In this document: in pieces, positions 11,991 through 49,136 of the stretch
Layout of the letters: each line of letters opens with the position of its first letter
How positions within the stretch are numbered: position 1 is the first letter of the stretch
Origin: Nitrospirota bacterium
Lineage (GTDB): Bacteria; Nitrospirota; Thermodesulfovibrionia; Thermodesulfovibrionales; UBA6898
Direction: 5' to 3'
NCBI GenBank assembly: GCA_024275975.1
Contig: JAJRYC010000017.1
Coordinates: 1-64,000 of the forward strand
Length of the DNA stretch: 64,000 nt
Made by a program: the position numbers and the translations under genes
The notes under the pieces: generated by a model
Told to the model about the DNA's origin: nothing
Database searches by the model: none
The model's input: the letters and a program-made list of their open reading frames with translations, nothing else

Positions 11991-12059
11991 AGCCGTTTTC
12001 AAAAATTTTTCAATTTATAAAAACAAAGCAAAATTCTTAAGGCCGGGTTAATAATCAAA

Positions 12060-13433: not shown

Positions 13434-13480
13434 CGCGGGGCATTCAGTATCTACCTGTTTTTCCTTATTCCGGATTACAT

Positions 13481-13516
13481 CTCCGGAGTCTGTTAAGACA
13501 ATAAGACCGGAGTTTT
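13481..13516 (+). terminator. possible terminator/attenuator between priming enzyme and gmd
   Basis: CTCCGG at 13481-13486 pairs with CCGGAG at 13507-13512, with an inner GTCT/AGAC stem, and is followed by TTTT. The stem is short and the loop long, so it may be weak. It separates the glycosyltransferase block from the sugar-nucleotide genes. Confidence 0.35.
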
Positions 13517-13639
13517 CGACAGATCCAGGAGGCGCCGGGATATAGTAAACTACTCGACTGGAAAATTCTTTATCTGATATACTATTAAAGTTGCTCCTTG
13601 CTCTGTCAACCACAAAATAATACATGGGAGGTTCAGATA

Positions 13640-14752
13640 ATGAAAACTGCTCTAATTACCGGTATCACAGGACAGGATGGAGCATATCTGGCCGAGTTCT
13701 TACTGAAAAAAGGTTACATTGTCAATGGAATTAAAAGGAGATCGTCCCTTTTCAATACTCAGAGAGTCGACTATCTTTATCAGGACCCGCATGAAGGCCA
13801 CCCAAAATTCTTCATGCATTACGGGGACCTTACAGACGCGACAAACCTTATAAGGGTCATCCAGGAGACCCAGCCTGACGAGATATATAATCTTGCCGCT
13901 CAATCTCATGTGAAGGTCTCTTTTGAGACGCCTGAATATACGGCAAACAGTGATGCATTGGGTACTCTCAGGCTTCTTGAGGCATTGAGGGTGTTAGACA
14001 TGACTAAAAAGGTCAGGTTCTATCAGGCTTCAACAAGCGAGCTTTTCGGCCAGGCCCGGGAGGTTCCACAGAGGGAGACCACGCCTTTTTATCCCAGAAG
14101 TCCGTATGCGGCAGCCAAACTCTATGCCTACTGGATCGTTGTGAATTATCGTGAGGCATATGGCATGCACGCCAGTAACGGGATATTATTCAATCATGAG
14201 TCGCCTACCAGGGGTGAAACATTTGTGTCGAGAAAGATCACAATGGCCGCGGGCCGGATTAAATTCGGACTCCAGAAAAGACTCTATATAGGGAATCTTG
14301 ATGCGAAACGCGACTGGGGATTCGCGGGCGACTATGTAGAGGCGATGTGGCTTATGCTTCAGCAGAAAGAACCCGATGATTATGTCATCGCTACTGGTGA
14401 AACCCATTCCGTTCGCGAATTTATCGAAGAGACATTTAAAGAAATCGGCATAGAGATAGTATGGAAGGGAAAGGGATTAAAGGAAAAGGGCATTGCCGGT
14501 TCCATGGATACCGACCGGCTGGACGCAATGTCGAAAATTAAGGCCGATGATACCGTTGTGTCTATTGATCCGCGATATTTCAGGCCGACGGAAGTCGATA
14601 TTCTGCTGGGAGACGCATCAAAGGCCAGGGATAAACTCGGCTGGCAGTCCAGGGTTAAACTGCCCGAATTAATAAAGATGATGGTAGAGTCGGATATAAA
14701 ATTGGCTGAAAAGGAATTGCTGCTTAATCAGAATAATATGCCGGTAAGGTAA
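13640..14752 (+). CDS. gmd: GDP-mannose 4,6-dehydratase
   Basis: Converts GDP-D-mannose to GDP-4-keto-6-deoxy-D-mannose, the first committed step to GDP-L-fucose, GDP-rhamnose or GDP-perosamine. It is 370 aa from the ATG that follows GGGAGG (13626-13631); an upstream start at 13598 would add a non-homologous tail. The NADP-binding [20 protein letters not shown] lies at residue 6, [15 protein letters not shown] follows, and the catalytic set includes STSELFG (Thr/Glu) and [10 protein letters not shown] (Tyr-X3-Lys), then [17 protein letters not shown]. All are diagnostic for Gmd. Its partner fcl follows 19 bases downstream, so GDP-L-fucose is the likely product. Confidence 0.96.
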
Positions 14753-14771
14753 CGACTCTATATAAGCATTT

Positions 14772-15803
14772 ATGGACAAAACCATGGATAAATCCTCCAG
14801 AATCTTCATTGCAGGGTATCGCGGTCTTGTAGGCTCGGCCATACTGCGCAGGCTTGGAGCCGATGGATATGAAAATATAATAACCCGGACCAGCAGTGAG
14901 CTTGATCTCACCAGACAGCCGGATGTCGGGAAATTCTTCGAGACTGAAAGGCCGGAATATGTCTTCCTTGCAGCCGCGAAGGTGGGCGGAATCATGGCCA
15001 ACGACAGATATCCCGCCGAGTTTATTTACAGAAACCTGATGATAGAGACCAATGTTATACATTCGTCATATCTGAGCGGCGTCCGAAAACTCCTTTTCCT
15101 TGGAAGCTCATGTATATATCCCAGGCTTGCGGAACAGCCGATGAAAGAGGAATGCCTGTTAACAGGTAGTCTCGAGCCGACGAATGAGCCGTACGCCATA
15201 GCAAAGATTGCCGGAATAAAGATCTGTCAGTCTTATAACAGACAGTACGGAACAAATTATATCTCGGCGATGCCCACGAACCTGTACGGCATGAATGATA
15301 ATTTTGATCTCGAAACATCCCACGTGCTGCCGGCGATGATCAGGAAGTTCCATGAGGCGAAGGTTCATATGGAGAAGGCCAATGTCAAAGTACCTTCCGG
15401 TTCCTCACCAATACAAAACACGGTTGAGCTATGGGGTACCGGCTCTCCTCGCAGAGAGTTCCTCCACGTGGACGACCTTGCCGACGCCTGTCTGTTCTTA
15501 ATGAATCTGGATGAAAAAACCCTTTCCCCTATGATCAGGCCCCCTGCTTCAATCATTAATATCGGGGTGGGTGAGGATTTGACGATCAAAGAACTGGCCG
15601 GGTTAATAAAGGGAATAGTCGGCTTTGACGGGAAAATAGCATGGAATCCGTCTAAACCTGACGGTACTCCGAAAAAACTGCTGGATACCGGTAAGCTCAA
15701 ATCTTTGGGCTGGACCCCGAGGATAGGCCTTGAAGCCGGTATCAGGATGACATACGAATGGTTTTTAAAAAGTAAAACCAGGGAGGAGATATGTACGCGG
15801 TAA
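14772..15803 (+). CDS. fcl: GDP-L-fucose synthase
   Basis: A 343-aa epimerase/reductase that turns GDP-4-keto-6-deoxymannose into GDP-L-fucose with NADPH. The N-terminal FIAGYRGLVGSAILRRL dinucleotide motif is followed by FLAAAKVGGIMAN, FLGSSCIYPRLAEQPMKE (active-site Ser/Cys) and YAIAKIAGIKICQSYNRQYG (Tyr-X3-Lys), then PTNLYGMNDNFD and the catalytic-His segment SHVLPAMIRKFHEAK. An insertion with IQNTVELWGTGSPRREFLHV is standard for the family. The gene follows gmd and overlaps manC by 13 bases. Confidence 0.96.
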   Translation: MDKTMDKSSRIFIAGYRGLVGSAILRRLGADGYENIITRTSSELDLTRQPDVGKFFETERPEYVFLAAAKVGGIMANDRYPAEFIYRNLMIETNVIHSSYLSGVRKLLFLGSSCIYPRLAEQPMKEECLLTGSLEPTNEPYAIAKIAGIKICQSYNRQYGTNYISAMPTNLYGMNDNFDLETSHVLPAMIRKFHEAKVHMEKANVKVPSGSSPIQNTVELWGTGSPRREFLHVDDLADACLFLMNLDEKTLSPMIRPPASIINIGVGEDLTIKELAGLIKGIVGFDGKIAWNPSKPDGTPKKLLDTGKLKSLGWTPRIGLEAGIRMTYEWFLKSKTREEICTR

Positions 15804-17206
15804 TACTTGCCGGAGGAAGTGGGACACGTTTCTGGCCGCTAAGCAGAGAAGCTACGCCCAAACAACTGCTTCGTGTATTCGGAGACTCGACCATGATACA
15901 GCAGACGGTTGAAAGGCTCAATAATTGCGTGCCATTGGACAAGACCTATATTGTGACAGGACAGAAATACGCCTATGATATCAAGCGCCAACTTGTAGAG
16001 ACATGCGGCTACGGCAGCTTTAAGGTGATTGTCGAGCCAGAAGGCAGAAATACAGCTCCGGCAATCGGTCTTGCCGCTGTATATATCAAAAAGAGATCAC
16101 CTAATGCCGTTATGGCAGTGATGCCTTCGGACCATGTTATCCTGAGGAATGCTGATTTCAGAAAAGTCCTGGAAAAGGCCGGGAAACTTGCTCGGAAGGG
16201 TTATTTGACTACAATAGGCATTATCCCCGACAGACCGGAAACCGGTTATGGTTACATCAAGAAAGGCGCTTCTCTGACTGAAACAGAAGATCTTCAGGGT
16301 TTCAGGGTCGAAAGTTTTGTCGAAAAGCCCGGCAGGAAAAAGGCGCTGGAATATCTCAAGTCCGGCGATTATCTCTGGAACAGCGGAATCTTCGTCTGGA
16401 GGGCGATCGATATTTTAACCGAGATCAGGAATCAGATGCCGGATTTATACAGGGGACTGCTGGAAATTGAAAAGGCGATAGGGAAAAAGGACGAAAAGGA
16501 GGTGCTGAACAGAGTGTTTAGTACCTTCAAGTCCGTATCAATAGATTACGGAGTTATGGAGAAGGCCCCGATGGTTGCTGTTATGCCGGCGGACATAGGC
16601 TGGAGCGATGTGGGAAGCTGGCGCGCCCTTGATGACATCTCGGAAAAAGATGAGGCGGGGAATATTATTACAGGTAATGTCATCGATATAGGATCAAGGA
16701 ATTCGATCCTGTATGCGGGGAAACGCCTGATCGCGTCTGTTGGACTGGAAAACGTTGTAGTGGTCGATACCCCTGACGCGACCCTGATATGTAATAAGAA
16801 TGATGCACAGGACGTCCGTAAGGTTGTGAGCAAACTCAGGGAAAAAGGAGCTGAAGAGCTGATTGAGCATGTCACTGTCCACAGGCCGTGGGGGTCCTAC
16901 ACACTTCTCGAAGTTGGAAACCGGTACAAGATAAAGAGGATAGTTGTAAAGCCGGGGGCGAAACTGAGCCGGCAACTCCATCACCACAGGAGCGAGCACT
17001 GGGTTGTTGTATCCGGTACGGCAATGGTCACTGTCGGAGATAAAACATTTAATCTGCATCCCAATGAATCCACTTACGTGCCTATATCAGTCAGCCACAG
17101 GCTCGAAAATCCGGGCAAGGTTCCGCTGCAACTGATAGAGGTCCAGAGCGGTGACTATATCGAAGAGGACGATATAGTGAGGTTCGAAGATGAATACGGC
17201 AGATGA
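15791..17206 (+). CDS. manC: mannose-1-phosphate guanylyltransferase / mannose-6-phosphate isomerase
   Basis: A 471-aa bifunctional type II PMI/GMP. Residues 1-340 hold the nucleotidyltransferase, with AVILAGGSGTRFWPLSRE at the N terminus (GTP-binding GXGXRXXPLSR), PKQLLRVFG, VMPSDHVI and FVEKPGRKKA. The C-terminal cupin (from about residue 360) has RPWGSYTLLE, GAKLSRQLHHHRSEHWVVVS and PNESTYVPISVSHRLENPG, giving the isomerase metal site with its QxHxHRxEHW-like histidine cluster. It makes mannose-6-P from fructose-6-P and GDP-mannose from mannose-1-P. It overlaps fcl upstream and manB downstream (4 bases), so the pathway is one coupled operon. Shine-Dalgarno GGGAGGAG lies just before the start. 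Confidence 0.95.
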   Translation: MYAVILAGGSGTRFWPLSREATPKQLLRVFGDSTMIQQTVERLNNCVPLDKTYIVTGQKYAYDIKRQLVETCGYGSFKVIVEPEGRNTAPAIGLAAVYIKKRSPNAVMAVMPSDHVILRNADFRKVLEKAGKLARKGYLTTIGIIPDRPETGYGYIKKGASLTETEDLQGFRVESFVEKPGRKKALEYLKSGDYLWNSGIFVWRAIDILTEIRNQMPDLYRGLLEIEKAIGKKDEKEVLNRVFSTFKSVSIDYGVMEKAPMVAVMPADIGWSDVGSWRALDDISEKDEAGNIITGNVIDIGSRNSILYAGKRLIASVGLENVVVVDTPDATLICNKNDAQDVRKVVSKLREKGAEELIEHVTVHRPWGSYTLLEVGNRYKIKRIVVKPGAKLSRQLHHHRSEHWVVVSGTAMVTVGDKTFNLHPNESTYVPISVSHRLENPGKVPLQLIEVQSGDYIEEDDIVRFEDEYGR

Positions 17207-18575: not shown

Positions 18576-19709
18576 ATGAAACAGGACAGAGCCATCTCTC
18601 TTATTCTTTTGTTGTCAAGAGTCAGTCCTTTCGCTGAAATCATCGGAACCGCGGAGCAGATAATAAAAGAGGGGGTTGACTGGAAGAAGTTTTGCAATTT
18701 GTCCATGGTTCATGGCGTGGCCCCCCTGATATACAAAAATATCGGTTCATTCAGTGACCTGCCGGAAGATGTCCTGAATATTCTGAAATCGGCATATTTC
18801 CATAACCTGAGAGATTCCCTGTCAGCGGCTTATGAACTCGCGGGGATAGTGGCTGCACTCGAAGAAGAAGGGATTGATGTGGTCCCTGTAAAGGGTCTCC
18901 TTATGACGGAAGAACTTTACGGAGATATCGGCCTGTATCCGTCGGCGGACATCGATATTCTGGTAAAAAGAGAGGATGTTCACAAGGCGGCCGGGATAAT
19001 GAAAGAGACAGGCTATGATGGTGAATCCGGCATGGATGAGTTCCGGCTTGATAATTACCAGGATGTCTCTTTCCACAAGGCCGGCAAAAAGCCTGTTGAA
19101 ATGCATATCTCGCTCGGGAAACCGAGGTATTTCAATCTGCCCTGGAATTTCTGGTGGGAAGATTTGAGGGAGAAAGATTTCGATGGCCGTGGATATAAGG
19201 TTCTGTCTCCCGAAAAAACCCTTGTCTACGCATGCATGCACCTCTTCGGTCACGGGTATTCCCCCTTCAAGTTTATCGTGGGTGTCGCTGAAATGCTCAG
19301 GATTTTCAGGGACGTGTTGAGATGGGATAAATTATTGGAATATTCGGAGAGGTATAATGTATATCAGCCGATGATGCTCTCCCTGTATTTAGCGTCAAAG
19401 CTCCTGGATGCGCCCCTTCCGCAGGAAATTACCGGTCGCCTGAAAAAGCTTTCACCGAAGGAAGAGTGGATTTATAAAAAGATCGAGACGTATATTTTTA
19501 TAGGGAAAGTCAGGTTTTCCAGGATTATGTTCTTATTGACCTCCCTTCGATCAGGTCTTCCTGAACTCTTTACGTATCTGGTGAGCTGGTTCTTCCCGCC
19601 GCTTAAGGAGGTGTCGTACAGATACGCGGTCCCTTTGAGATCAAAGAAGATCTTTCTTTATTATCTCCTGAATCCTGTATTGCTTTTATCTAAAAAAAGA
19701 AATATATAG
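18576..19709 (+). CDS. uncharacterised nucleotidyltransferase family protein (NTP_transf_5 type)
   Basis: A 377-aa protein resembling the NTP_transf_5 family. The nucleotidyltransferase-like core is VVPVKGLLMTEELYGDIGLY followed by ADIDILVKREDVHKA at about residues 112-135. The paired acidic DID motif is the putative metal site. A further Asp/His cluster occurs in KPVEMHISLG near residue 172. The enzyme activity is not known. Such proteins occur repeatedly in exopolysaccharide loci and, as I recall, beside HprK-like kinases and PqqD-like proteins, both of which occur in this window about 12 kb away. It is transcribed with the GDP-sugar genes (11 bases after manB). A lipid- or peptide-linked nucleotidyl transfer is possible, without direct evidence. 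Confidence 0.7.
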   Translation: MKQDRAISLILLLSRVSPFAEIIGTAEQIIKEGVDWKKFCNLSMVHGVAPLIYKNIGSFSDLPEDVLNILKSAYFHNLRDSLSAAYELAGIVAALEEEGIDVVPVKGLLMTEELYGDIGLYPSADIDILVKREDVHKAAGIMKETGYDGESGMDEFRLDNYQDVSFHKAGKKPVEMHISLGKPRYFNLPWNFWWEDLREKDFDGRGYKVLSPEKTLVYACMHLFGHGYSPFKFIVGVAEMLRIFRDVLRWDKLLEYSERYNVYQPMMLSLYLASKLLDAPLPQEITGRLKKLSPKEEWIYKKIETYIFIGKVRFSRIMFLLTSLRSGLPELFTYLVSWFFPPLKEVSYRYAVPLRSKKIFLYYLLNPVLLLSKKRNI

Positions 19710-25196: not shown

Positions 25197-27395
25197 CTAT
25201 CTGGACGTCTCCTCTGATGAATCATAGCCATTATTATATCCGTAATAGTATCCGCCATGTTTCATGTCAACGCGGTTAATCACAATACCTAGCAGATTCG
25301 ATTCCATATCATGCAATGATTTCAGCCCCCTGCTCAGGCTTTCGAATGTGGTGCTGCCGGCCTTTGCAACTATTATAGTCCCGTCAAGCAGCTTGCTTAA
25401 AATAAGGCTGTCTGTCACAGACAGCAGCGGCGAAGAATCCCAGATGATAATATCGAACCGCTCATTAATGACTTTAAGCAGGTTCTCCATCCTGTTGGAG
25501 CTTAATAATTCTGACGGGTTGGGTGGGACCGGGCCCGAAGGCAAGACACTCAGGTTGCAGGGTTCCGGCATAGTTCCTATTGAGATAATATTGAGATCGG
25601 ATACTCCCGCCAGGTATGTGCTCAGCCCCTTCGAATTATCCAGCCCGAATATTTTATGAATGCGGGGTCTCCTCAAATCACTATCAATGAGCAGGACGGA
25701 GTGCTCCGCAAGGGCGATCGTCAGAGCAAGGTTACAGGCAGTGGTGGTTTTGCCTTCGCCAACAGTTATGCTTGTGACGAGTATATTTTGGGGAGGTTTG
25801 TCGGCTGATGAAAGTAGAATTGCGGTCCTTATCCCCTTATAGCTTTCGGCGATAACGGATTGATGTTCTCTCGTAACAATGATGTCGATATTTTTTTCGC
25901 GGGACCTTGAAAGCATGACCATTCCGAGCACAGGCACACCGAGCCGCAGGTCAATATCCTCGGGGGACTTGACTGTATTGTCCAGATATTCCAGAAAGAA
26001 TACCATTCCCATACCTCCCATCAGTCCGACAATCAGGCCCAGCAAGGTATTAAGAGGTTTGTTCGGTTTGACCGGAAACTCGGGCATTGCTGCTTTTTCT
26101 ACAACCCATACATCCACGGTGCGGATATCCTGGGTAATATTATGCTCCTTGATTTTCCTGATAATCACATCAAAAAGCTGTTTGTTGGTCTCAACCTCCC
26201 TCTTTAATGCATTGTACTGTATGAATTTCTGGTTGAGCTCCAGTGTCTCGGTTTTGGTCCTATCCGCCATTTTACGGAAGTTTTCCTCGTTGGCCCTGGC
26301 CAGCGCATATCTGTTTTTTATCGTCTCGATAACTCTCCTGATCTCCTCCGTCTTTTTTTCGTTTAATATCTTGAGGTCTCCCATTGCCGTTATCATGACG
26401 GGATGTTTCCGGCCAAATTTCTTTGACATTTCAATGATATTCTGTTCAGCCTTCAGTATCTGCATCCTTAGCTCCTGGACTGTCGGGTCGGAAGCGACCG
26501 CAGGGATGGTCCCGACATTTTCGAGGTCCAGAGACATCTCTTTTACAGTGGTATAAAGCGTTTCCATCTCTTTCCTGTCCGTTTCAGCCCTGGCGATTTT
26601 AGAGGCGACTTCCGAGAGTTTCTCGGGCACCAATGCGAGCCTGTTCTCAAGGGTGACGATATCGTTGCGCTCCATATATTTCTGTAATGCGTTCTCCGAC
26701 TCTGCGAGTCTCGCCCTCTCTTTGTCGGCCTTCTCCGTCAGCCAGCTGATCGCGTGTCTGGAAGTGCTTATATTCATCTCAAGGATATCATCCATGTATG
26801 CCTTTGTCACTGAATTTACGATCAATGTGGCGAATTCGGGATTAGTGGACCTATAGCTGATATTGACAAGCGTGCTGTTTTTTATTGGGTTTATTGTGAT
26901 TGAACCGCTTATCATCCGCGCAAGCCGGTCGGAAGCAGACACGGTTTCATCCGATTTAATCTCCCCTCTGTTTCCGGTGTCCGGCTCCGGTTTCGAGATT
27001 CCCGTTACGTTTAAAATCACGGAAAATATTTTCCTGAACCATCCGACTGTTCCCTGAATTATACCGGGACTCTTACTTTTGTTCGGGAACCAGGTCTCTT
27101 CCTTTGTGTCGAGAGAAAGCAGGTTGACGACCCTCTCCGCGACAGAACGGCTTTTTATGAGTTGATATTGTGTATTATAGAAATCAGGGTCATAAGGGAC
27201 ATAATAAAAATCCGCCAGATTACTGGGCTTGGGTTTCTGTATCAGCACCTTTGTCGTCGCCTCGTAAACCGGTGTGGTCGAAAACGTTGCTATTACGGTA
27301 ATGACAAATAACGCTATGAATATAGTAAAAAAGGTGTACCTTCTTTTAACTATTACCCTGTAATATTCTCTTAGATGGATCTCTCTTTCTTCCAT
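25197..27395 (-). CDS. polysaccharide co-polymerase / BY-type tyrosine autokinase (Wzc-like)
   Basis: A 732-aa inner-membrane protein controlling EPS chain length and export. The N terminus has a Wzz domain with a helix near residue 20-40 (RYTFFTIFIALFVITVIATF), a long periplasmic coiled-coil (about 190-400, including the GKKFGRKHPVMITAMG-like turn), and a second helix after PNKPLNTLLGLIVGLMGGMG. The C-terminal bacterial tyrosine kinase domain (from about 520) shows Walker A VGEGKTTTACNLA, Walker A' LLIDSDLRRPRIHK, and Walker B IIIWDSSPLL. The extreme C terminus is a Tyr cluster (HGGYYYGYNNGYDSS), the usual autophosphorylation site. The gene starts 3 bases after wza-like, with which it forms a trans-envelope complex. 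Confidence 0.93.
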   Translation of the reverse strand: MEEREIHLREYYRVIVKRRYTFFTIFIALFVITVIATFSTTPVYEATTKVLIQKPKPSNLADFYYVPYDPDFYNTQYQLIKSRSVAERVVNLLSLDTKEETWFPNKSKSPGIIQGTVGWFRKIFSVILNVTGISKPEPDTGNRGEIKSDETVSASDRLARMISGSITINPIKNSTLVNISYRSTNPEFATLIVNSVTKAYMDDILEMNISTSRHAISWLTEKADKERARLAESENALQKYMERNDIVTLENRLALVPEKLSEVASKIARAETDRKEMETLYTTVKEMSLDLENVGTIPAVASDPTVQELRMQILKAEQNIIEMSKKFGRKHPVMITAMGDLKILNEKKTEEIRRVIETIKNRYALARANEENFRKMADRTKTETLELNQKFIQYNALKREVETNKQLFDVIIRKIKEHNITQDIRTVDVWVVEKAAMPEFPVKPNKPLNTLLGLIVGLMGGMGMVFFLEYLDNTVKSPEDIDLRLGVPVLGMVMLSRSREKNIDIIVTREHQSVIAESYKGIRTAILLSSADKPPQNILVTSITVGEGKTTTACNLALTIALAEHSVLLIDSDLRRPRIHKIFGLDNSKGLSTYLAGVSDLNIISIGTMPEPCNLSVLPSGPVPPNPSELLSSNRMENLLKVINERFDIIIWDSSPLLSVTDSLILSKLLDGTIIVAKAGSTTFESLSRGLKSLHDMESNLLGIVINRVDMKHGGYYYGYNNGYDSSEETSR

Positions 27396-27398
27396 GTA

Positions 27399-28190
27399 TC
27401 AGAAGAAACTTTCGGGGACGATGATAATGTCCTCGGGAAGGACCGGCTCATCCATTTTTGCCCTTTTGATAATTTCTTCCTTCCCCTCTGTCTTTCTCAG
27501 GATTTTGACCCTTCCCCTTGATGCCGTATCTGTAAATCCGCCTGCCTTTGTAATGGACTTGATAACGGTTGAGCCTGCCTCATATCTGTACGCGTCAGGC
27601 TTCTTCACCTCCCCTGTAACATAAAACAGGCCGGCCTTCCCGATATAGATGTTATCACCGTCCATTATCGGCACATCCAGTGACGTGTCCCCGTCTTCTA
27701 TGAGCCTTTTTAGATCGATAACTATTTTGTTTCCATTACCGCCGGGCTGTCCGGCCCTTCTTTTTATTACCGCTTTATCTCCAGCTTCTTTTGTTAAGCC
27801 GCCCGCTTTTGAAAGGAACTCCAGAAATGTTGTTTCTCCATGAAGTTCGTAAATACCGGGATTTTTTATCTGTCCCATGATGACGGTCTTTTTGCTCCTG
27901 AACTCTTCAATGAATACAGCCACGTGGGGGTTGACGATGTATCCATCGGCAAGAAGATCCGACATCTTCCGGGAAATCTGGGCCGCCGTCATCCCCGCCA
28001 CATCTATATTGCCTATCAGCGGAAAATTAATTACACCGTTGCTGCTGATCCTTGCGGTTGTGTCAAGATCAGGATTGTCATAAACAGTTATTTTCAATAT
28101 GTCATCTTTGCCCACAATATAATCCCCGGCATATGGAGTCTGGACCATCAACAGAATCAGTCCGATTATTAATGAAAAATATTTGCTCAT
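27399..28190 (-). CDS. polysaccharide export outer-membrane protein (Wza-like, SLBB)
   Basis: A 263-aa secreted protein with an N-terminal signal peptide (MSKYFSLIIGLILLMVQTPY) but no lipobox Cys, unlike Wza of Escherichia coli. The Poly_export domain starts YIVGKDDILKITVYDNPDLD at about residue 24 and continues ISSNGVINFPLIGNIDVAGM. Two SLBB beta-grasp repeats follow (VIMGQIKNPGIYELHGETTF and LFYVTGEVKKPDAYRYEAGS). It forms the periplasmic/outer-membrane channel that Wzc opens. The missing lipid anchor and missing C-terminal amphipathic helix suggest that the separate barrel protein encoded just upstream provides the outer-membrane pore. Confidence 0.92.
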   Translation of the reverse strand: MSKYFSLIIGLILLMVQTPYAGDYIVGKDDILKITVYDNPDLDTTARISSNGVINFPLIGNIDVAGMTAAQISRKMSDLLADGYIVNPHVAVFIEEFRSKKTVIMGQIKNPGIYELHGETTFLEFLSKAGGLTKEAGDKAVIKRRAGQPGGNGNKIVIDLKRLIEDGDTSLDVPIMDGDNIYIGKAGLFYVTGEVKKPDAYRYEAGSTVIKSITKAGGFTDTASRGRVKILRKTEGKEEIIKRAKMDEPVLPEDIIIVPESFF

Positions 28191-28299: not shown

Positions 28300-29664
28300 T
28301 TAAAACGATGCCTTGATGCTGAAAAGTATTGTATTGCCTGAATAGCTGAAATCAGAAAAATTCGAGTCTCTCTTTGTATGCGTATATACTATGCTGTTTT
28401 CAACCCGTTCCCTGAACTTATACTGAAATCCAAGTGACGATTTATACGTGTTATCTTCTCTTTCGTCAGTCTCGCCGCCGAGTGTCAGATCACCCTTGTA
28501 TTTATCATCGGTGTATGAAAGCTTAACGAAACCCATGGTCCTGGCGGTCAGCATCTGTTGATATTCCATCCCGGTCCCGCTGGTGAGCATAAATAGCGAT
28601 GTCTCCATGCTGGTCTCCCTGGTTTTCCTTACCGCAGTGAATTTTATGGATGTTTTTGGCGTGAATTTATGTTTGATCTGCGTCTCGAAGAGAAAATTTC
28701 CGGTTTTTTTCGGGGATCCGATAAAGTTTTTCCTACCATAGCCCGCCTTTAATGTCCCCTTTGATTTGGCTGTAATGTCCCATTTAAGACCACCCCAGAA
28801 GTGGTGCTCCCTGCTGTTCAGCACGCTATTGTCGGGATAATTAATATCGATAAAGTCATATTCCGCGAACAACGCGGTCTTCGGGCTGAATTTATAAAAA
28901 AGATGTGATATGAAAGCATTGTCACTACGGTCTCTGAACATATTTCTCTGTGCGTCATAGTCGAGCATAAAGTTGGAGTAATCGATGCCCAGCCGGAGTT
29001 TTCTCCCTATATCATAGGATATTGCCGCATTAAATGAGTTACTCCTGAATTTGTCCACCGCATCCGCTTCCGTCGTCGAAACACCCGCCTCTCTTTCTAC
29101 ATAAGATATGGTGAACTGGTTGATGAGATCAATATCTATAATACGGCTGTTATATGAAATTCTGCTATAAAGTTTATGGCTGTCGGTGTTTCCGGATGGA
29201 GATATTCCTGAATGAGACGGGATGTCGGCCCTGTACACCAAATATGCCTGATAGCGTCTTAAAATCTTATTATCGAACCTGCTGAACAGGCTGCCGCCTG
29301 GAGAACGTGTTGATATGTCTTGAAATGCCGGAGGTTTTTGCCTGATACCCGGCAGCGCAAGCCATATCTTTGGCGAAAAAACAGTAGTGAAGCTGCTTTT
29401 CCTGTTGTCACTTGTGTTAAAGGCGTTGTCCGTATATATCCCCGTAATCATAAGAGAGGCATGAAGGTAGCCGCGTTTTCTCCCGAATAGTTCCCGGGCG
29501 GTCCATTTCGCCCCTGACATAGTCGCATCTTCACCTTCGTCGGGATTGTGTTGAACATTCCCGTCCCCAGGAGAGATTGTCCCCGGCCCGGGAAATACTT
29601 CGGCGGAAATCCCGTTCCAGGGGAAGAGAAAACAGATAATAATAATATATAGAATTTTCTTCAT
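28300..29664 (-). CDS. outer-membrane beta-barrel protein of the EPS export system
   Basis: A 454-aa protein with a signal peptide (MKKILYIIIICFLFPWNGIS, cleavage after ISA). Most of residues 70-454 alternate polar and hydrophobic positions in strand-length runs, rich in Tyr/Phe/Arg (for example DFIDINYPDNSVL, HHFWGGLKWDITAKSKG, IVYTHTKRDSNFS), and the chain ends in Phe, the outer-membrane insertion signal. About 16-18 strands are plausible. It resembles the putative exopolysaccharide outer-membrane barrels (EpsL/BBP2 type) encoded next to Wza/Wzc in exosortase- and EPS-locus bacteria. Gene position between the S26-GNAT gene and the Wza-like gene supports an export pore. A specific subfamily is not assigned. 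Confidence 0.78.
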   Translation of the reverse strand: MKKILYIIIICFLFPWNGISAEVFPGPGTISPGDGNVQHNPDEGEDATMSGAKWTARELFGRKRGYLHASLMITGIYTDNAFNTSDNRKSSFTTVFSPKIWLALPGIRQKPPAFQDISTRSPGGSLFSRFDNKILRRYQAYLVYRADIPSHSGISPSGNTDSHKLYSRISYNSRIIDIDLINQFTISYVEREAGVSTTEADAVDKFRSNSFNAAISYDIGRKLRLGIDYSNFMLDYDAQRNMFRDRSDNAFISHLFYKFSPKTALFAEYDFIDINYPDNSVLNSREHHFWGGLKWDITAKSKGTLKAGYGRKNFIGSPKKTGNFLFETQIKHKFTPKTSIKFTAVRKTRETSMETSLFMLTSGTGMEYQQMLTARTMGFVKLSYTDDKYKGDLTLGGETDEREDNTYKSSLGFQYKFRERVENSIVYTHTKRDSNFSDFSYSGNTILFSIKASF

Positions 29665-29749: not shown

Positions 29750-30787
29750 TCAAGAAAATTGGTGTAAAGTTGATGCCGATGCTGGATCCAGACACCTGGA
29801 CATGACGATATTACGGCGTTCTCCCATGCCTTCCTCCTCTTCGGTGTGAGTATCCGGCGCCGGAATTGAAAACCGCTGGAAGCCCCATTTTTGATAAAGA
29901 TTCAAGGCCGCGTTGTTATCTTCGGAGACCATGAGGTTTATCCTGTCCGCGCCCCCGGCGACGGCTTTTGCCAGTGCCGCATGCATCAACATATCTCCTA
30001 TGCCGGAGCCGCGGTGACGCGCGCGCACCAGCAGCCCGAAGAGCCACCAGCCGGGGTGACTGAGATTATTTTTCGGGAACCTTCTGATGACCACCGCGCC
30101 GGCGATCTTTTCTCCCAGGGTAGCGACTAGGGTATATTCACTATCGTCCGCGCCTTTGATCTTCAGGCCGAAACTCCTGATATGTTCTTCCAGATCCATG
30201 AATCGCACGTAGCCATACAACTTATATATGTCGGAGGCGTCGTCCTCGCCGGCAAGGCGGCAGCCGACTTTTCCGCCGAGCAGTTTACCGAAAAGAATAC
30301 GGTAGGATTTCAGTGACTGCATCCCCCGCAGCAACCCGGCGGCGGCCTGCTTTAACGGCCATGTAAACGCCGGCGGCTGGACGTACGTCCATAAGAGTAT
30401 CGCCAGCCGCTGGAGCCGCCTCTCATGCTGAATTATTCGTGTTCCACGTTGAATTCCGGCCACCCTGCCCAGTATCCGGTCTTCCATTACATACTCGTCT
30501 CGTCCGGCTGACGCGTCCCCGCGCAATATGAGCATTGTCCGGTCGTTTATCATGGTCCTGCCGATAAAACGGTGCGCCGCCAGGCTTTTGCCGGAGGACC
30601 GGTAAAAGGCCACATCCCCTGTATTAAGCTCTGAAGCCCGGACGGGTTCCACAGTGAGGATGTCGCCGTCACGGATAAATGGATACATGCTGGAGCCCCT
30701 GGCTTTAAAGGAGAAACTGCCGTTCCGTGAGAGCACCCCTGTGGATATGGCGGCAAAATCTTCCTGTCCCAGGATCACTTTACGCAT
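29750..30787 (-). CDS. S24/S26-like peptidase fused to a GNAT acetyltransferase domain
   Basis: A 345-aa two-domain protein. Residues 1-115 form a signal-peptidase-like/S24 fold: FKARGSSMYPFIRDGDILTV (nucleophile Ser in S-X-M-X-P, near residue 32), then GDVAFYR and LAAHRFIGR, where the His-Arg pair recalls the Ser-His type (archaeal/SipW-like) signal peptidases instead of the Lys type. Residues 205-330 form a GNAT domain: GEKIAGAVVIRRFPKNN, LLVRARHRGSGIGDMLMHAA (acetyl-CoA pyrophosphate loop R-X2-G-X-G) and EDNNAALNLYQKWGFQR. The middle (130-180) is a linker with one amphipathic or membrane-associated segment. It overlaps the kinase gene by 13 bases and is G+C-rich. Likely roles are leader removal and N-acetylation of the peptide encoded two genes upstream, which is inference. 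Confidence 0.75.
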   Translation of the reverse strand: MRKVILGQEDFAAISTGVLSRNGSFSFKARGSSMYPFIRDGDILTVEPVRASELNTGDVAFYRSSGKSLAAHRFIGRTMINDRTMLILRGDASAGRDEYVMEDRILGRVAGIQRGTRIIQHERRLQRLAILLWTYVQPPAFTWPLKQAAAGLLRGMQSLKSYRILFGKLLGGKVGCRLAGEDDASDIYKLYGYVRFMDLEEHIRSFGLKIKGADDSEYTLVATLGEKIAGAVVIRRFPKNNLSHPGWWLFGLLVRARHRGSGIGDMLMHAALAKAVAGGADRINLMVSEDNNAALNLYQKWGFQRFSIPAPDTHTEEEEGMGERRNIVMSRCLDPASASTLHQFS

Positions 30788-31644
30788 CGGACAAAATCCA
30801 CCACATTTATGTCAGGCGCAAACCCCAGCTCAAAGCAGGGAATCGTTGTAACGAGCTGCGCGCAGAAGTCGAGCGTAAAACGCATTCCATCGGCATCCCA
30901 TAATGTAGGGAAGCAGCGGGCCAGCAGCATTGTTGAAGCTGACGCGCCTTCTTTCAGCTCGGCGGTATTGGCCGCTGCATGACGGAGGAATAATATCTTT
31001 TCGAGGGGCACTCCATTGGGAGATGTCCCGCTGTAGTCCCCGTGCCAGGGTGTGCCGTACATCCAGAAGCGGTTGTCGCGCCATCGCAGGACGATCCTGT
31101 CATCATTCAGAATCAGCGCCCGGTCCTTGAATATCCGGGCGATGGTAGACTTGCCGTGCGTGGAATTCCCGGCAAAGAGGTAGCCGCGACCATTGTCTTC
31201 AACCCCGCAGGCATGCACCAGCAGCCCTTTGCCCTGGGCCAGAAGGCAGATCATCAGCAGTTCCGAAAGCGGAAACTCCAGCGGGTTTGGAAGGAGACCG
31301 TCGGACTGCTCTCCTGGAGCAGGATGGTTGAAATAGACCCGGCCCTGCCGGAAACCGGCGTCAAAGACCCCGATGCGGTAAGGATGAGGCCCCATGATCG
31401 GCGACCTCAGGACAAAAAAATTCTCTTCCCCCCGATGGTAAAGACTCCAGATACTCCCGGAGTCGAAGACCTTGCCCCCTTCTCCCGGAATATTCAGGGG
31501 AATGCCGTCATAATCGGCATGGATGGTTATATCGGGCTTGCCGCCGCAGAGGAAATCCCGGTAGGCATCCTCGATCCGGATGTCCCCGGTCTGCCGGTCG
31601 CTCGTTATGGCAAATACAATGTCAGCGATTCTGAATGATGTCAT
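30775..31644 (-). CDS. HPr-kinase-like ATP-dependent kinase of a RiPP/PqqD cassette
   Basis: About 289 aa from the ATG at 31644 (MTSFRIADIVFAI); a TTG at 31659 would add five residues. The C-terminal half carries an HprK-type P-loop, FAGNSTHGKSTIAR near residue 160, followed by ALILNDDRIVLRW, equivalent to the HprK acidic pair, and GTPWHGDYSGTSPNGVPLEK. The N-terminal half is an HprK-related beta-rich region without clear HPr-binding features. No HPr or PTS gene is nearby, so the target is probably not HPr. Relatives in lasso-peptide clusters (PadeK, ThcoK) phosphorylate the C-terminal Ser of the precursor. The small peptide encoded just upstream ends in Ser, which fits. Gap to the precursor is 50 bases (35 from the TTG). 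Confidence 0.78.
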   Translation of the reverse strand: MTSFRIADIVFAITSDRQTGDIRIEDAYRDFLCGGKPDITIHADYDGIPLNIPGEGGKVFDSGSIWSLYHRGEENFFVLRSPIMGPHPYRIGVFDAGFRQGRVYFNHPAPGEQSDGLLPNPLEFPLSELLMICLLAQGKGLLVHACGVEDNGRGYLFAGNSTHGKSTIARIFKDRALILNDDRIVLRWRDNRFWMYGTPWHGDYSGTSPNGVPLEKILFLRHAAANTAELKEGASASTMLLARCFPTLWDADGMRFTLDFCAQLVTTIPCFELGFAPDINVVDFVRCVK

Positions 31645-31694
31645 GACGTGGTCGCTCAATTTTTTATCATTATTCTGTCCTGTTATTTATTCCA

Positions 31695-31871
31695 TCAAGA
31701 TCCTACAGAACTGCAAGTACCCTGTCCAGTGCATGTAGTCTTTGGGCCGGTGAAGCCGCCGGTAGTCTTACAGTTGCCCAACACTGCTTCTTCGGCGATA
31801 AGCCTCACCTGTTCTATCTTCGGCCTTTTATACGGCCGCCTGCTCTTCTCTGTTTCGGTTGTTTTTTTCAT
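31695..31871 (-). CDS. candidate RiPP precursor peptide (58 aa)
   Basis: A 58-residue peptide starting at the second of two tandem ATGs; GGAGG (31877-31881) lies 5 bases before it and only 2 before the other. The start is nested in the 3' end of the radical SAM gene (44-base overlap). Residues 1-31 are charged (many Lys/Arg/Glu) and include PYKRPKIEQVRLIAEEAVLG, a leader-like helix resembling PqqD-bound leaders. After the Leu-Gly, residues 33-58 are Gly/Thr/Ser-rich with three Cys (34, 47, 53), giving NCKTTGG and TTCTGQGTC, and end SSVGS. The order PqqD, radical SAM/SPASM, peptide, kinase, protease/acetyltransferase is what a modified-peptide cassette should look like. No homologue was searched; expression and modification are inference. 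Confidence 0.72.
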   Translation of the reverse strand: MKKTTETEKSRRPYKRPKIEQVRLIAEEAVLGNCKTTGGFTGPKTTCTGQGTCSSVGS

Positions 31872-32970
31872 CATTTCCTCCGGTTTTATTCTTAAATCCA
31901 AATGCTGTTGCACGCAGGTGGGCGATTTGGCAGAGGTACTCCACCGGCGTCTCCTGGTCTCCGTTCTCCATCAGTGCCCAGCCGGGGCACTGCCCGCAGA
32001 GAGAGATTAATTCACAGTTTTCGCATGGCGTCTTCCTTGTCCTCCGCTGCATCCGCACCCGCGGCATCAGGTTTTGCCATCCATCGTGGAACGTTCCATC
32101 CCGCAGGTCATGGGTGGGGACGCGGGCCATCATGCATGCGCTCATCCGTCCGTAAGGGTCGATATGAAAGGTTTCAACTCCCGCGCCGCACTGGTATAAA
32201 AATTCTGGCCTTGAAGGTGCTCCCAGAAACCTGTCACAGAACTCACGCCATCCCTCCAGCCGCTTTTCGTCGGCAAGGTCCAGGGCCACCGCCTCCTGGG
32301 CGGGTATTCTGAGCTCGGCGGTACTCCGTCCACCGTCGGTCCGCAGGTTCAGTACCGGATCAAACCTGAAATCCAGGCCAAGCCCCTCGGCAAAGGCCTT
32401 CATCTCCCAGATCTCATGCTTGTTCAATGTTAGCACCATAGCCTTTAACTTAAGGGGAAGGTTGCGCTCCATCAGCAGGTCGATCCCCCGCATGCATGCA
32501 TCATATGAGCCGGGGATGCCGGTCACCCGCTCGTAGGTCTCTTGCGTCTGGCCGTACAGGGAGATCTCCAGAACGAACGGCTGCCATTCAGCGAGGTGGT
32601 CCGCGATAGCAGGTGTGATGGTTGTTCCGTTGGTAAAGATGGTGACTAGTAACCCTTTTTTCTTTGCGTAGGTGTATATGTCGGTGAAATCAGGGCGTAT
32701 AAAGGACTCGCCTCCTGTCATCAGCAGCCAGAGACAGCCTTCATCAACAATCTGGTCCAGGAGGTTGCATATTTCTCTGGAACTCAGTTCTCTTTCCCTG
32801 GCGTCCCGGTCTCCGGCGGGCAGGTTTATGTAACAGTGAGCGCAGCGAAGATTGCACCGGGCGGTAACTTCGATGCTGCCTGTGAGAGGGATGTTCCGGC
32901 CCCCGCATCTGTTATGCAGGCGCTTGCTGAAGTCAGCATAGCCTGTGACGGGAATATGCTGGCAATCCAT
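31828..32970 (-). CDS. radical SAM/SPASM peptide-modifying enzyme
   Basis: A 380-aa radical SAM maturase. The core [4Fe-4S] motif is CNLRCAHCY (CX3CX2C, near residue 39), followed by LLMTGGESFIRPDFTDIY (GGE S-adenosylmethionine motif) and the beta-strand FVLEISLYGQTQETYERVTG. The SPASM domain begins near residue 265 with YQCGAGVETFHIDPYGRMSA and continues with CENC, CGQC and a last Cys in YLCQIAH: seven Cys, enough for two auxiliary clusters. Known relatives make thioether, C-C or C-O crosslinks in peptides. The gene begins one base after the PqqD stop and encloses the precursor start in its 3' end, so the three are translated together. Confidence 0.88.
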   Translation of the reverse strand: MDCQHIPVTGYADFSKRLHNRCGGRNIPLTGSIEVTARCNLRCAHCYINLPAGDRDARERELSSREICNLLDQIVDEGCLWLLMTGGESFIRPDFTDIYTYAKKKGLLVTIFTNGTTITPAIADHLAEWQPFVLEISLYGQTQETYERVTGIPGSYDACMRGIDLLMERNLPLKLKAMVLTLNKHEIWEMKAFAEGLGLDFRFDPVLNLRTDGGRSTAELRIPAQEAVALDLADEKRLEGWREFCDRFLGAPSRPEFLYQCGAGVETFHIDPYGRMSACMMARVPTHDLRDGTFHDGWQNLMPRVRMQRRTRKTPCENCELISLCGQCPGWALMENGDQETPVEYLCQIAHLRATAFGFKNKTGGNDEKNNRNREEQAAV

Positions 32971-32971
32971 C

Positions 32972-33271
32972 TTAAACAGTTTTCACAAAATTATATTTTT
33001 CCAGTTGCCGCAGAAATTCGATCAGATCGGCTTCCGCTTCTTCCCTGCTTACTTCAAACTCGCCGATGATCGCGTCCCTTATCTCAACAGCCTGTTTTTC
33101 GCCATCTATTAATTCCCATATGCGTCCGGCCGCTTCGTTCATCGAATAGATGCTTTCGATCTCTCCAGCCTTCTGTTTAATAGGCACCAGGATGAATTCA
33201 CCGGCGATTTTTCTCGAAACAATTGATGGTTCCCTGGCAAATCGCAGGGAAAGATATTCAACACTATTCAT
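32972..33271 (-). CDS. PqqD-like peptide chaperone (RiPP recognition element)
   Basis: A 99-aa PqqD-family protein. Its winged-helix fold is suggested by SRKIAGEFILVPIKQKAGEI followed by IYSMNEAAGRIWELIDGEKQ near residues 43-58 (the conserved N-E-X-X-X-X-I-W core) and REEAEADLIEFLRQLEKYNF at the C terminus. These domains bind the leader of a precursor and present it to a radical SAM enzyme; the adjacent gene encodes one, and the stop and its start nearly touch. Its G+C content is nearer that of the host than the rest of the cassette. It binds the candidate 58-aa peptide by inference. Confidence 0.87.
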   Translation of the reverse strand: MNSVEYLSLRFAREPSIVSRKIAGEFILVPIKQKAGEIESIYSMNEAAGRIWELIDGEKQAVEIRDAIIGEFEVSREEAEADLIEFLRQLEKYNFVKTV

Positions 33272-33309
33272 GGTCTAATAATAGCAAAATGATCTGATTA
33301 ATAGTAGGT

Positions 33310-33786
33310 TCAAAATGATGCCGGGCTGAAATACCTGCCGCCATCGCTTCCGGCGGGTGGATCGATCTCCGCCTGCATCAGATCTTCTTCCTCATCAAGG
33401 TAGCCGAAATCCAGGCCCAAGCCTTCATAAATCCCGGTTATCCCGGCCGGTTCTGCTCCCGCATTCAGTGTGCATCTGGCAACCACATCGGAAGTGAGCC
33501 CGGCCTCTATTGCGCCTGTAATTATCAGCCGTAAATCCCCACCACCGTCAATAGCGCAACCGATGACATAACAGGCATCCCGGCCTGCCCTGATGTTGGT
33601 CCTGACAATTTTTTTTGCATCAAGACCGTCCTGTATGGATCTTTTAATAACATTGCATATTTCTTCCCGCCCTGTATTGTTCCGCGTCAAAACATCTTTT
33701 TTAACATTTTCTTTTGTAATGGCCGGATTGGCCGGAAGTATGATTGACAATGAGATAAAAAAGAATACAGCCAGATATTTATTCAT
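33310..33786 (-). CDS. secreted hypothetical protein with repeated Cys-bearing helical units
   Basis: A 158-aa protein with an AAGGAG Shine-Dalgarno and a signal peptide (MNKYLAVFFFISLSIILPAN, likely cleaved near residue 22). The mature part has at least three similar units of about 25 residues: ICNVIKRSIQDGLDAKKIVR, ACYVIGCAIDGGGDLRLIIT and VARCTLNAGAEPAGITGIYE. Each pairs a Cys with a Gly/Asp turn and a hydrophobic helix. An acidic tail (DEEEDLMQAEID) precedes an aromatic C terminus ending in Phe. I do not recognise a family. It heads the minus-strand operon that contains the peptide cassette and the export genes, so it may be an envelope component or accessory of either. Confidence 0.7.
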   Translation of the reverse strand: MNKYLAVFFFISLSIILPANPAITKENVKKDVLTRNNTGREEICNVIKRSIQDGLDAKKIVRTNIRAGRDACYVIGCAIDGGGDLRLIITGAIEAGLTSDVVARCTLNAGAEPAGITGIYEGLGLDFGYLDEEEDLMQAEIDPPAGSDGGRYFSPASF

Positions 33787-33880
33787 TGTATTGGCTCCTT
33801 ATTCTGAGTTTAGATCATTATCTCAAAACCGGCATGCCCTGTCAATAAATAAATTTGAATTGTCAATTAAGAATTAAAAT

Positions 33881-46136: not shown

Positions 46137-49136
46137 TTAGAGGGTAACCTTAAACTCCATCACCGCGGATCCGAACAAAAATCTCCTCCTGGATACTTTT
46201 ACTGTAATCTCATCGCCTTTCCGTTGATCCAGGAGGAATATCCTGATATCATCCACACTTCTGATTTTTGTATTATCAAGCGATAAAACAACATCATCTA
46301 TTTTCAGTCCCGCAGTTTGCGAGACGCTGTCACGGGCAAACCCGACTATCTTCACTTTTCCTTCTTCTTCTTCACTCAGTACAACCATGAGCTCAGGCGA
46401 TTCAGGCGCGTTAACGGCTGAGGGGAAAAGGATGAAATCGGCTATGTCCCTCTCAACAGCCCCATCATTCAGAATAATCGAATATTCTATATTGTTTAAC
46501 CTGAAGGCACGCGCCGGAATTCCGGAGCCGAAAGTTATATGTCCGGCTCCCGCAATCACAATAACCTGACGTTCAGGGTTCTTCCGGATGAATTCATCAA
46601 GATTATGGGCCATTGATTCATCCCAGAGCACCTGCGCCTCGTAAAAAAAATCGAAGTTCCTGTCACTGGAATTCCCATGCATTTTAAAGATTTTCTTCAG
46701 TCTCTTCCTGTATTCCATGTTCGAGAGATCGATCTCCTCGGGGACCTCTTGCAGTTCTTCCTCTGTAAGAGCGTCAATACCTGCCCTGGCGACTTTCGAG
46801 ACTATTTTCTTGCTGATATTAAGCGCTATGACAGGTATTTTATTCGCACGCGCGAACAAAAGAATCTCTCTGTAAAGATTATAGTCGAACCCCCAGTGTT
46901 TGAAATATTCCGTCTTCTTTAAAAAGACTTTTTCGTTGGTCCGGCCGGCGATATAATCGTCGAGAGCCTGCTGAAAAGGCTTCTGAAACATCTCCATGCC
47001 TATGGCGATGTTTTTGTTCGATTTATATAATTCCCGTATGACCTCAATCTGGGTGCGATGGTGCTCAAACCGGGTGTGTGATTCGCCGATATAGATTATC
47101 TGTCTACCGCTCACCTTTTTGATGATATCGAAGATACTCAGAACGCGCGGAATGTCGATGCCGAGGACCTCTTTTCCGGTCTTTAATCTGATACCTCTAT
47201 CGCTACCGTCGACTGATTTCATGATGTTTTTGCCGTTTCTGAACGCGATAAAGCTATATCTACCATAATGTGGGATCCTCCGAACATATCCAGTCATGTC
47301 ATCAGTTGAGACACTGTCAAGGACCGCTATCACTCCCCTGCTGTTCAGCGGGTTGTTTTTGACCGTGACACGGAAATCCCCCTCCTGACTCTCTATCTCG
47401 CCGAAAAGTCTTTTTACCCAGCCGGTTTCCGCATCCGGGACGACAAATGAAGATGATTTTATATCGTCATATTTAATCTCTTCCTCTTTTTTGTCCATAA
47501 AACCCTCTTTTTTGAAATAATCAGCCAAAGGGGCGTATTCCCCGGCCTTACCCCGTGGGATGACGAATATCTTTTTTTTATCGCCGAGCAGCCTCGAAAT
47601 TACCGGGGGAAACTCTTTATCAGAAAGTCTTCTTAACAGGTCATAACTATCATCTATAACCAGCTCTACCGGCAGCTCCTCCGTCTCTATCTCGACAACG
47701 GTGGATTCTTCATCTATCACGAAATTCCTTCTCATCCAGCCGTCGCGGAATCTTAAGAGTAGGGGAATACTGAGCTTATATGTTTCAGCCCCCTGGAACA
47801 GCTCGAACCTGACCGATGCCTTTGAGCCTGTATATTTCATCTCCAGCTTTCTCAACCCGATTTTCGGCATCCCTTTCCCCTCAAGCCACTGGCTGAAGAA
47901 CCATCCGAGGTCCTCGCCGGAGACGGATTCAAATGCATCCCGGATGTCGCTCCATGATGCGGAACGGAATTTATTTTTTTTGATGAATAAACCGAGCGAC
48001 CGGTAGAAGGTCTCCTCGCCAACCTGGTTCTTCAGCATATGGAATACCATCGCCGACTTGTTGTATCCGATCGCCGCGCTGACCCTGCCGGTTCTGCCCG
48101 TAAAAGATTTCAGAGGAAATTCATTTTCCGGCCTCACATAACTCTGGAATGATATCAATGCCTGCTTCCTATAATCCCATCCGGTCCCTTTCAGTTCCCG
48201 GTACATATGGTCGGCAAGATAGGTTGTAAGTCCTTCGCTCCAGTTGCCGCTCTCATAGTCGATATAGACAAGGCATCCGAACCATTGATGTAATATCTCG
48301 TGTCCGAGGGAGGTCTCAACGATAAATGGCAGTCTGACAACATCCCGGCCGAGCAGCGTGAAGGTCGGCATGGCATATCCGGTTGGCAGAATGTTCTCGA
48401 CGATAGAAAATCTTTTAAATGGATACCGGCCCAGGAGCTTTTCGTACATATTGAGGTACTTGCCGGCATATTCTATATAGGTCTTTGCAAGTCCTTTATC
48501 TTCAGGAAGAAAATACGCGAATATTTCGGTTTCATTAAAAGTGTCTTTCAAGATCAGGTATCTGCCGGCAATCAGGCTGATATTCCGGACCGGGTGCGGG
48601 AATACAAAAGAAAATTCCCTGTCAGTCCCTGTCTTGTCCCGTATCAAAATCTCTTCCGCCTCTGATACAGCCTCGAATTCTCGGGGCAGTATGGCCGTCA
48701 GGCTGAAGAGAGAAAGACCGTCTATGGCAGGATACCATTTATCTATCAGCACAACTCCGTCGGGGTTTATCAGATTCCCCTCCACAACGCCGGGGTTTTT
48801 GCTGTTGTAGGTACCGACAGATGCCCTGAACTCTGCTTCATATTCTATCATCAGGACCTCATCCGCCGTCTCGGGCCGGAAAGTAATCATGGTGATGCCC
48901 GGCCCAATGACCAGCGGCCTGTCGTTTATCGAAGCGGCGATGACCTTCAGCCCGGAGAGAGCCACGTTGGCAGTATGTTTTGAAGGCAGGGAAATCCTGG
49001 AGGTTCCGGTAATCTTATGGCCCTCAAGATCAACTTGTATATCAATTTTATTCAACGGTATATCCTCCCCCGCAAAAGAAATTCCATATAAAAACAGAGA
49101 TAGCATCAGCAGAGAAAACTTCAGGGCTGTATACAT
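46137..49136 (-). CDS. M1-family metallopeptidase fused to a ChaN-like heme-binding domain and a PDZ domain
   Basis: A 999-aa secreted or periplasmic protein (signal peptide MYTALKFSLLMLSLFLYGIS). The M1 aminopeptidase half starts with a beta-sandwich (residues 25-210), followed by the catalytic GHEILHQWFG (HEXXH, near residue 279) and ESGNWSEGLTTYLADHMYRE with the third Glu ligand. The second part (about 640-900) has the ChaN/DUF399 signature IIYIGESHTRFEHHRTQIEV, GMEMFQKPFQQALDDYIAG and VIAGAGHITFGSGIP. The C-terminal 90 residues form a PDZ-like domain (KIDDVVLSLDNTKIRSVDDI). ChaN proteins bind heme in iron uptake, so the fusion might release and capture heme from proteins; this is inference. 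The gene is followed by a bidirectional terminator and is alone in its unit. Confidence 0.84.
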   Translation of the reverse strand: MYTALKFSLLMLSLFLYGISFAGEDIPLNKIDIQVDLEGHKITGTSRISLPSKHTANVALSGLKVIAASINDRPLVIGPGITMITFRPETADEVLMIEYEAEFRASVGTYNSKNPGVVEGNLINPDGVVLIDKWYPAIDGLSLFSLTAILPREFEAVSEAEEILIRDKTGTDREFSFVFPHPVRNISLIAGRYLILKDTFNETEIFAYFLPEDKGLAKTYIEYAGKYLNMYEKLLGRYPFKRFSIVENILPTGYAMPTFTLLGRDVVRLPFIVETSLGHEILHQWFGCLVYIDYESGNWSEGLTTYLADHMYRELKGTGWDYRKQALISFQSYVRPENEFPLKSFTGRTGRVSAAIGYNKSAMVFHMLKNQVGEETFYRSLGLFIKKNKFRSASWSDIRDAFESVSGEDLGWFFSQWLEGKGMPKIGLRKLEMKYTGSKASVRFELFQGAETYKLSIPLLLRFRDGWMRRNFVIDEESTVVEIETEELPVELVIDDSYDLLRRLSDKEFPPVISRLLGDKKKIFVIPRGKAGEYAPLADYFKKEGFMDKKEEEIKYDDIKSSSFVVPDAETGWVKRLFGEIESQEGDFRVTVKNNPLNSRGVIAVLDSVSTDDMTGYVRRIPHYGRYSFIAFRNGKNIMKSVDGSDRGIRLKTGKEVLGIDIPRVLSIFDIIKKVSGRQIIYIGESHTRFEHHRTQIEVIRELYKSNKNIAIGMEMFQKPFQQALDDYIAGRTNEKVFLKKTEYFKHWGFDYNLYREILLFARANKIPVIALNISKKIVSKVARAGIDALTEEELQEVPEEIDLSNMEYRKRLKKIFKMHGNSSDRNFDFFYEAQVLWDESMAHNLDEFIRKNPERQVIVIAGAGHITFGSGIPARAFRLNNIEYSIILNDGAVERDIADFILFPSAVNAPESPELMVVLSEEEEGKVKIVGFARDSVSQTAGLKIDDVVLSLDNTKIRSVDDIRIFLLDQRKGDEITVKVSRRRFLFGSAVMEFKVTL

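Follow-up and report, generated by a model that had tools for sequence, protein, structure and literature searches.

In May 2026, a class of linear polyphosphorylated peptides (LPP) was described; their clusters lie in polysaccharide loci and unite a PqqD-type RRE with an HprK-like kinase and a signal peptidase of archaeal type. A biofilm or capsule role of phosphorylated RiPPs was proposed by the authors as a speculation (Popov et al. 2026, PMC13381572). The peptidase of that pathway, LppS, requires the triad S29/H68/D93, as tested by mutation, and its cleavage, on the C-terminal side of a Thr, depends on the presence of the RRE (PMC13381572). The kinases PadeK, ThcoK, SyanK and PsmK of the paeninodin-type lasso peptides target the C-terminal Ser, a residue described as extremely conserved wherever a cluster encodes a kinase of this type, and PsmN is required for the hexoses on the phospho-Ser of pseudomycoidin (PMC9266682). 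The motif of the kinase BsfK, H148-G163-G166-G168-K169-S170-D186-D187, is conserved in lasso-peptide kinases and most of its residues were shown to matter (PMC10368454). Our search of the literature found nothing on the combination of PqqD, HPr kinase and radical SAM proteins, nor on SynChlorMet.

The window, i.e. the whole stretch of 64,000 nt that was analysed, comes from a Nitrospirota bacterium and carries on its minus strand (33786-29750) the genes for secH, PqqD, a radical SAM/SPASM protein, a peptide of 58-59 aa, an HprK-like kinase and an S26-GNAT fusion, followed by EpsL, Wza and Wzc (Table 1). The first six had been announced from the sequence, and all were found at the coordinates, on the strand and in the families given by the original prediction. 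The PqqD and radical SAM genes are 1 bp apart, the radical SAM and peptide genes overlap by 44 bp, and the HprK and S26 genes by 13 bp. For the peptide, the 58-aa form (start at 31871) was preferred over the 59-aa form because a Shine-Dalgarno sequence, GGAGG, lies 5 bases upstream of the second ATG; the residue numbers used below are those of the 59-aa form. The kinase gene has alternative starts, TTG 31659 or ATG 31644. The candidate promoter sits about 30 bp upstream of secH, the number of such sites in the scan being at chance level, as were the overall counts of the promoter and terminator scans. We think it fairly probable that the cassette is a RiPP system making a radical-SAM-modified, Ser59-phosphorylated and S26-trimmed peptide that acts with EpsL/Wza/Wzc.

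Table 1. Features of the cassette and of its surroundings (positions in the window)
Feature	Position	Strand	Basis or remark
Candidate promoter TTGACA-17-GATAAT	33817..33845	-	11/12 match, TG ahead of second hexamer
secH, secreted helical-repeat protein, EPS operon	33310..33786	-	neighbourhoods in relatives
PqqD-type discrete RiPP recognition element	32972..33271	-	PF05402 2.1e-16
Radical SAM/SPASM peptide maturase	31828..32970	-	PF04055 2e-19
Precursor peptide, 58 aa (59 from 31874)	31695..31871	-	alignment, context
HprK-like peptide kinase	30775..31659	-	motif, predicted fold
Archaeal/SipW-type S26 peptidase fused to GNAT acetyltransferase	29750..30787	-	S24/S26 + GNAT family matches
EpsL/BBP2_2-type outer-membrane barrel	28300..29664	-	PF10082 8.5e-21
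Wza/EpsE-type polysaccharide export protein	27399..28190	-	TIGR03028 7e-54
Wzc-type chain-length regulator/tyrosine autokinase	25197..27395	-	family match
NTP_transf_5 protein (PF14907, 4e-52)	18576..19709	+	about 10 kb from cassette, opposite strand

As neither NCBIfam nor Pfam gave a match for the peptide, it was traced by alignment and profile. It carries the leader motif YKRPKI (YxxPx[LVI]), the invariant pair Cys35-Lys36, Cys48, a nearly invariant Cys54 and the C-terminal Ser59. Seven residues (P18, L25, E29, C35, K36, C48 and S59) are invariant in the alignment of 21 homologous sequences, the window's included, and the small ORF is therefore not a chance ORF. Of 41 genomes searched, 25 gave matches at E<=1, the better ones being checked by gene context; in the annotated neighbourhoods PqqD, radical SAM, peptide and HprK genes are found together, usually with S26 too. 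The precursor is conserved along with radical SAM and HprK genes in many genera and several phyla; relatives come from Omnitrophota, Nitrospirota, Nitrospinota, Chloroflexota, Aminicenantes, Deltaproteobacteria and Verrucomicrobia, as well as from f29, a family of the window's phylum that is probably Nitrospiraceae. Homologous loci devoid of the small ORF, which would have spoken against a RiPP-type cassette, were looked for and not found. In the 74 homologues that have radical SAM as well as HprK genes nearby, the last residue is Ser in 70, Thr in two and Gly in two. Their cores diverge strongly despite the conserved C-terminal Ser, with three Cys as a rule. All 73 non-identical peptides have a [YWF]xxP leader motif, and in 67 of them a small residue (G/A/S/T/N) precedes the first Cys. 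By this conservation, the small ORF is a real precursor family. One peptide match (L031) was set aside, no cassette genes being present around it. A truncated peptide-like ORF, likewise without cassette genes, occurs at L137 in a genome devoid of EpsL (G351) and is probably the remnant of a lost cassette. A lipobox reading of an LxGC-like motif was discarded on inspection, as the charged leader lacks a hydrophobic stretch.

The radical SAM protein has its CxxxCxxC at residues 39, 43 and 46, and seven more invariant Cys (261, 279, 316, 319, 325, 328 and 347) in the SPASM region. Its nearest solved relatives are SkfB (2.7e-26) and PqqE; it rose above no NCBIfam equivalog cut-off, the PapB model giving 61 of 340 bits. 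The HprK-like kinase displays H149, a P-loop (G164-K170-S171) and the D186-D187 pair, the P-loop and the Asp residues being invariant in the alignment. H149, G164, G169, K170, S171, D186 and D187 agree with the lasso-kinase motif, with T167 in place of one glycine (G166). An HPrK/PEPCK fold is predicted (pLDDT 90.8), and the best structural matches of the model are PEPCK and HPr kinase/phosphatase, which have one shared kinase fold; the match is at fold level only, since TM-scores were below 0.5. The kinase family by itself does not reveal the phospho-acceptor, since LppK and BsfK, unlike the C-terminal-Ser kinases, act on core residue 3. In the LPP this residue is the acceptor Ser, whereas in the window family position 3 is not conserved and the end Ser is.

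In the S26 part, S33, H72 and D91 are invariant in the alignment, and the TIGR02228 score is 50.6 bits versus a cut-off of 51.85; it is a probable leader peptidase. Phosphorylation and cleavage of the peptide, both foreseen in the original prediction, are the best-supported steps. Acetylation, also foreseen there, is no core step: the S26-GNAT fusion, with its GNAT domain at about residues 175-308, was found only in the window and in its closest relative (L028, 63% in the radical SAM protein), and acetylation was rejected as a general step.

The cassette shares with the LPP clusters a discrete PqqD-type RRE, an HprK-like kinase with the catalytic motif H149/K170/D186/D187, an archaeal/SipW-type SpI-like peptidase with a Ser-His-Asp triad, a [YW]xxPx[LVI] leader and a location in polysaccharide loci. 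The differences are as follows. The full LPP leader, YxxPxVLxHQxIxFETxxS, is missing in the window peptide, YKRPKIEQVRLIAEEAVLGN, YxxPxI alone being in common. The LPP product is linear and formed without a primary maturase, whereas in the window cassette a Cys core is accompanied by a radical SAM/SPASM maturase. LPP clusters include an NTP transferase and an MsbA-like exporter, both absent from the window cassette but present in some siblings. Finally, LPP are mainly from Bacillota, and cassettes of the window type from Nitrospirota and other phyla. With the paeninodin-type lasso peptides, the cassette has in common the leader motif, the PqqD-type RRE, an HprK-like kinase with the His-Lys-Asp-Asp motif and the conserved C-terminal Ser. 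The cassette proteins include neither the macrolactam cyclase nor the B2 peptidase of these systems; they comprise radical SAM and S26 proteins instead. SynChlorMet (TIGR04248-04251) also sets a small peptide among PqqD, HprK-like and radical SAM/SPASM proteins, but with a radical SAM pair (ScmE/ScmF) where the window has a single one. Membership in SynChlorMet was rejected, the scores being far below the curated cut-offs (ScmC 31.7/125, ScmD 23/100, ScmE 81.6/400, ScmF 77.7/400); the Nitrospiraceae sibling L154 and L059 did not reach them either. A Cys core and a SPASM region are present in the window cassette, and Cys thioethers of the kind formed in sactipeptides and ranthipeptides via radical SAM/SPASM enzymes may be made on that core; SkfB is the nearest solved relative, and the PapB cut-off was not reached.

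The sibling cassettes of f29 (L145-L150, L152-L156, L158-L164) comprise three radical SAM genes, HprK, S26 and one to three Ser-ending peptides. They share with the window PqqD, radical SAM, HprK and S26 proteins and a peptide with QEQAIL..C and a C-terminal Ser, and differ by the three radical SAM genes, an often adjacent NTP_transf_5 gene and the absence of EPS genes nearby. Taken together, these comparisons favour reading the window cassette as the LPP/paeninodin logic in a radical-SAM variant. The claim of an undescribed system stands in part: the set is not of a wholly undescribed kind because LPP clusters already combine RRE, kinase and peptidase in polysaccharide loci, and what appears to be new is that a radical SAM maturase for a Cys core is paired with a conserved C-terminal Ser.

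To assess the link with the EPS operon, cassette presence was scored by an HprK profile (E<1e-50) in 121 genomes of the order. Both cassette and EpsL were present in 21, the cassette only in three (G016, G019 and G398), EpsL only in two (G156 and G367) and neither in 95 (Fisher p 2.8e-18), in a sample where genomes are mostly incomplete and related genera or genomes are not independent. A within-family permutation, which took in only genomes with a listed family, gave p<=1e-5. The more distant Wza paralogues of these genomes showed no association with the cassette (p 0.78). Adjacency by itself is weak evidence because EPS genes adjoin the cassette in a minority of related loci only; co-occurrence is not mere hitch-hiking of neighbours, since several genomes (e.g. 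G001, G030, G034, G168 and G294) carry the two loci on different contigs. The anticipated tie between peptide cassette and polysaccharide is thus upheld by co-occurrence, beyond adjacency, and it is from this statistical association that we infer an EPS role of the peptide. In the phylum sample, a strong EpsL (E<1e-50) occurs in 30 genomes, of which 28 also have the peptide and one more (G355) the kinase; weaker EpsL relatives are present without the peptide in the wider phylum. The partnership is not universal because only one of the 29 Nitrospiraceae sibling cassettes goes with EpsL, and because G016 and G019 have the kinase without it. Given this weaker coupling in the wider phylum, the link belongs to the window's order and its EPS operon. 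In individual genomes and within families, a radical-SAM lineage of another phylum here goes together with a single defined EPS operon, and this makes the RiPP-capsule/biofilm question raised by the LPP authors testable with few genes.

The pathway that we propose draws on motifs and on relatives studied by others. PqqD would bind the YxxPxI leader and present the peptide to the radical SAM/SPASM enzyme, which would modify the Cys core, most likely by a thioether or other cross-link via Cys35/48/54. The HprK-like kinase would phosphorylate the C-terminal Ser59, and the soluble SipW-type S26 peptidase would cut the leader off after the small residue before Cys35, leaving a mature core of about 25 residues with CK at its start and a phospho-Ser at its end. 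The GNAT fused to the peptidase in the window lineage may add an acetyl group to a Lys or to the newly exposed N-terminus. With the EpsL/Wza/Wzc pathway, the product would act as matrix component, partner or regulator; it is probably used in building or controlling the surface coat. For a precursor family outside the NCBIfam models, an exact prediction follows: a C-terminal phospho-Ser and cleavage before the first Cys.

The co-occurrence could also reflect a shared lifestyle or island, the cassette making an independent secreted RiPP, i.e. a bacteriocin or a signal. An ABC exporter adjoining the cassette in some relatives speaks for this, together with the minority of loci where cassette and EPS genes are physically adjacent and the Nitrospiraceae and G016/G019 cassettes without EpsL. 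We hold it rather unlikely: the association holds within families and with the loci apart and is absent for the other Wza paralogues, and Wza/Wzc genes lie near cassettes of other phyla too (L048, L053, L058 and L061). Conversion of the peptide to a PQQ-like redox cofactor would agree with PqqD standing alongside a PqqE-like SPASM radical SAM protein, and the leader motif is also common to PQQ precursors (PMC13381572). Yet core length and sequence vary widely, only the Cys residues, the Lys that follows the first of them and the terminal Ser being kept, and no further PQQ genes are among the cassette proteins, so that we give this reading hardly any weight.

That the C-terminal phosphoserine is an attachment point, where an added glycan joins the peptide to polysaccharide, has the precedent of PsmN in pseudomycoidin (PMC9266682). 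NTP_transf_5 genes by sibling cassettes and in the window, and the richness of the window locus in glycosyltransferases, argue in the same direction; NTP_transf_5 is nevertheless absent from the cassette proper, and we consider such an attachment improbable. Equally doubtful to us is the end product that might be imagined, a surface-matrix conjugate in which the phosphoserine of a radical-SAM cross-linked peptide is glycosylated or otherwise joined to exported polysaccharide. The NTP_transf_5 protein of the window lies within its glycosyltransferase locus and possibly corresponds, in trans, to the NTP transferase encoded in LPP and lasso clusters. As the preferred reading, we keep the modified and phosphorylated peptide acting with EpsL/Wza/Wzc.

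The secreted hypothetical protein, secH, had been counted among the cassette members. It turned out to be a standard EPS-operon gene: in relatives it adjoins EpsL or lies near it, upstream in the same operon, and it was rejected as a RiPP component since it follows the EPS operon. Neither Pfam nor NCBIfam gave a family above cut-off for secH, and a fold search with its helical-repeat model (pLDDT 81.7) gave no significant match. Its C-terminal SPxxF/P is conserved. The secH proteins (window and L165-L187) form an undescribed secreted family with a Gly-rich tail, possibly for sorting or docking.

A large protein of one similarity cluster is found beside the cassette in 18 related loci (L032, at 10804-16776, L033-L035, L037-L039, L042, L043, L047, L055, L130, L131, L133, L135, L138, L139 and L142); that of L032, the one tested, ends in a Peptidase C25 domain, of the gingipain/PorU type. 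Many of these proteins, which adjoin PqqD or the cassette, are 1300-2900 aa long and have signal-peptide-like starts. Within the order, C25 genes were detected in 15 genomes with the cassette and in 0 of 97 without it (p 2.4e-13), and there is none in the window's own genome. A role of the large proteins in the extracellular processing or presentation of the peptide is possible. No exporter is among the genes of the window's cassette; an ABC-transporter-type protein stands beside the cassette at L029 (5207-6973, tested), L046, L050, L129, L136 and L141. The ABC-transporter and C25 loci do not overlap, and they perhaps represent two export or processing styles. Elsewhere in the window, at 46137-49136, a 999-aa protein combines, as judged by eye, an HExxH peptidase part with further domains.
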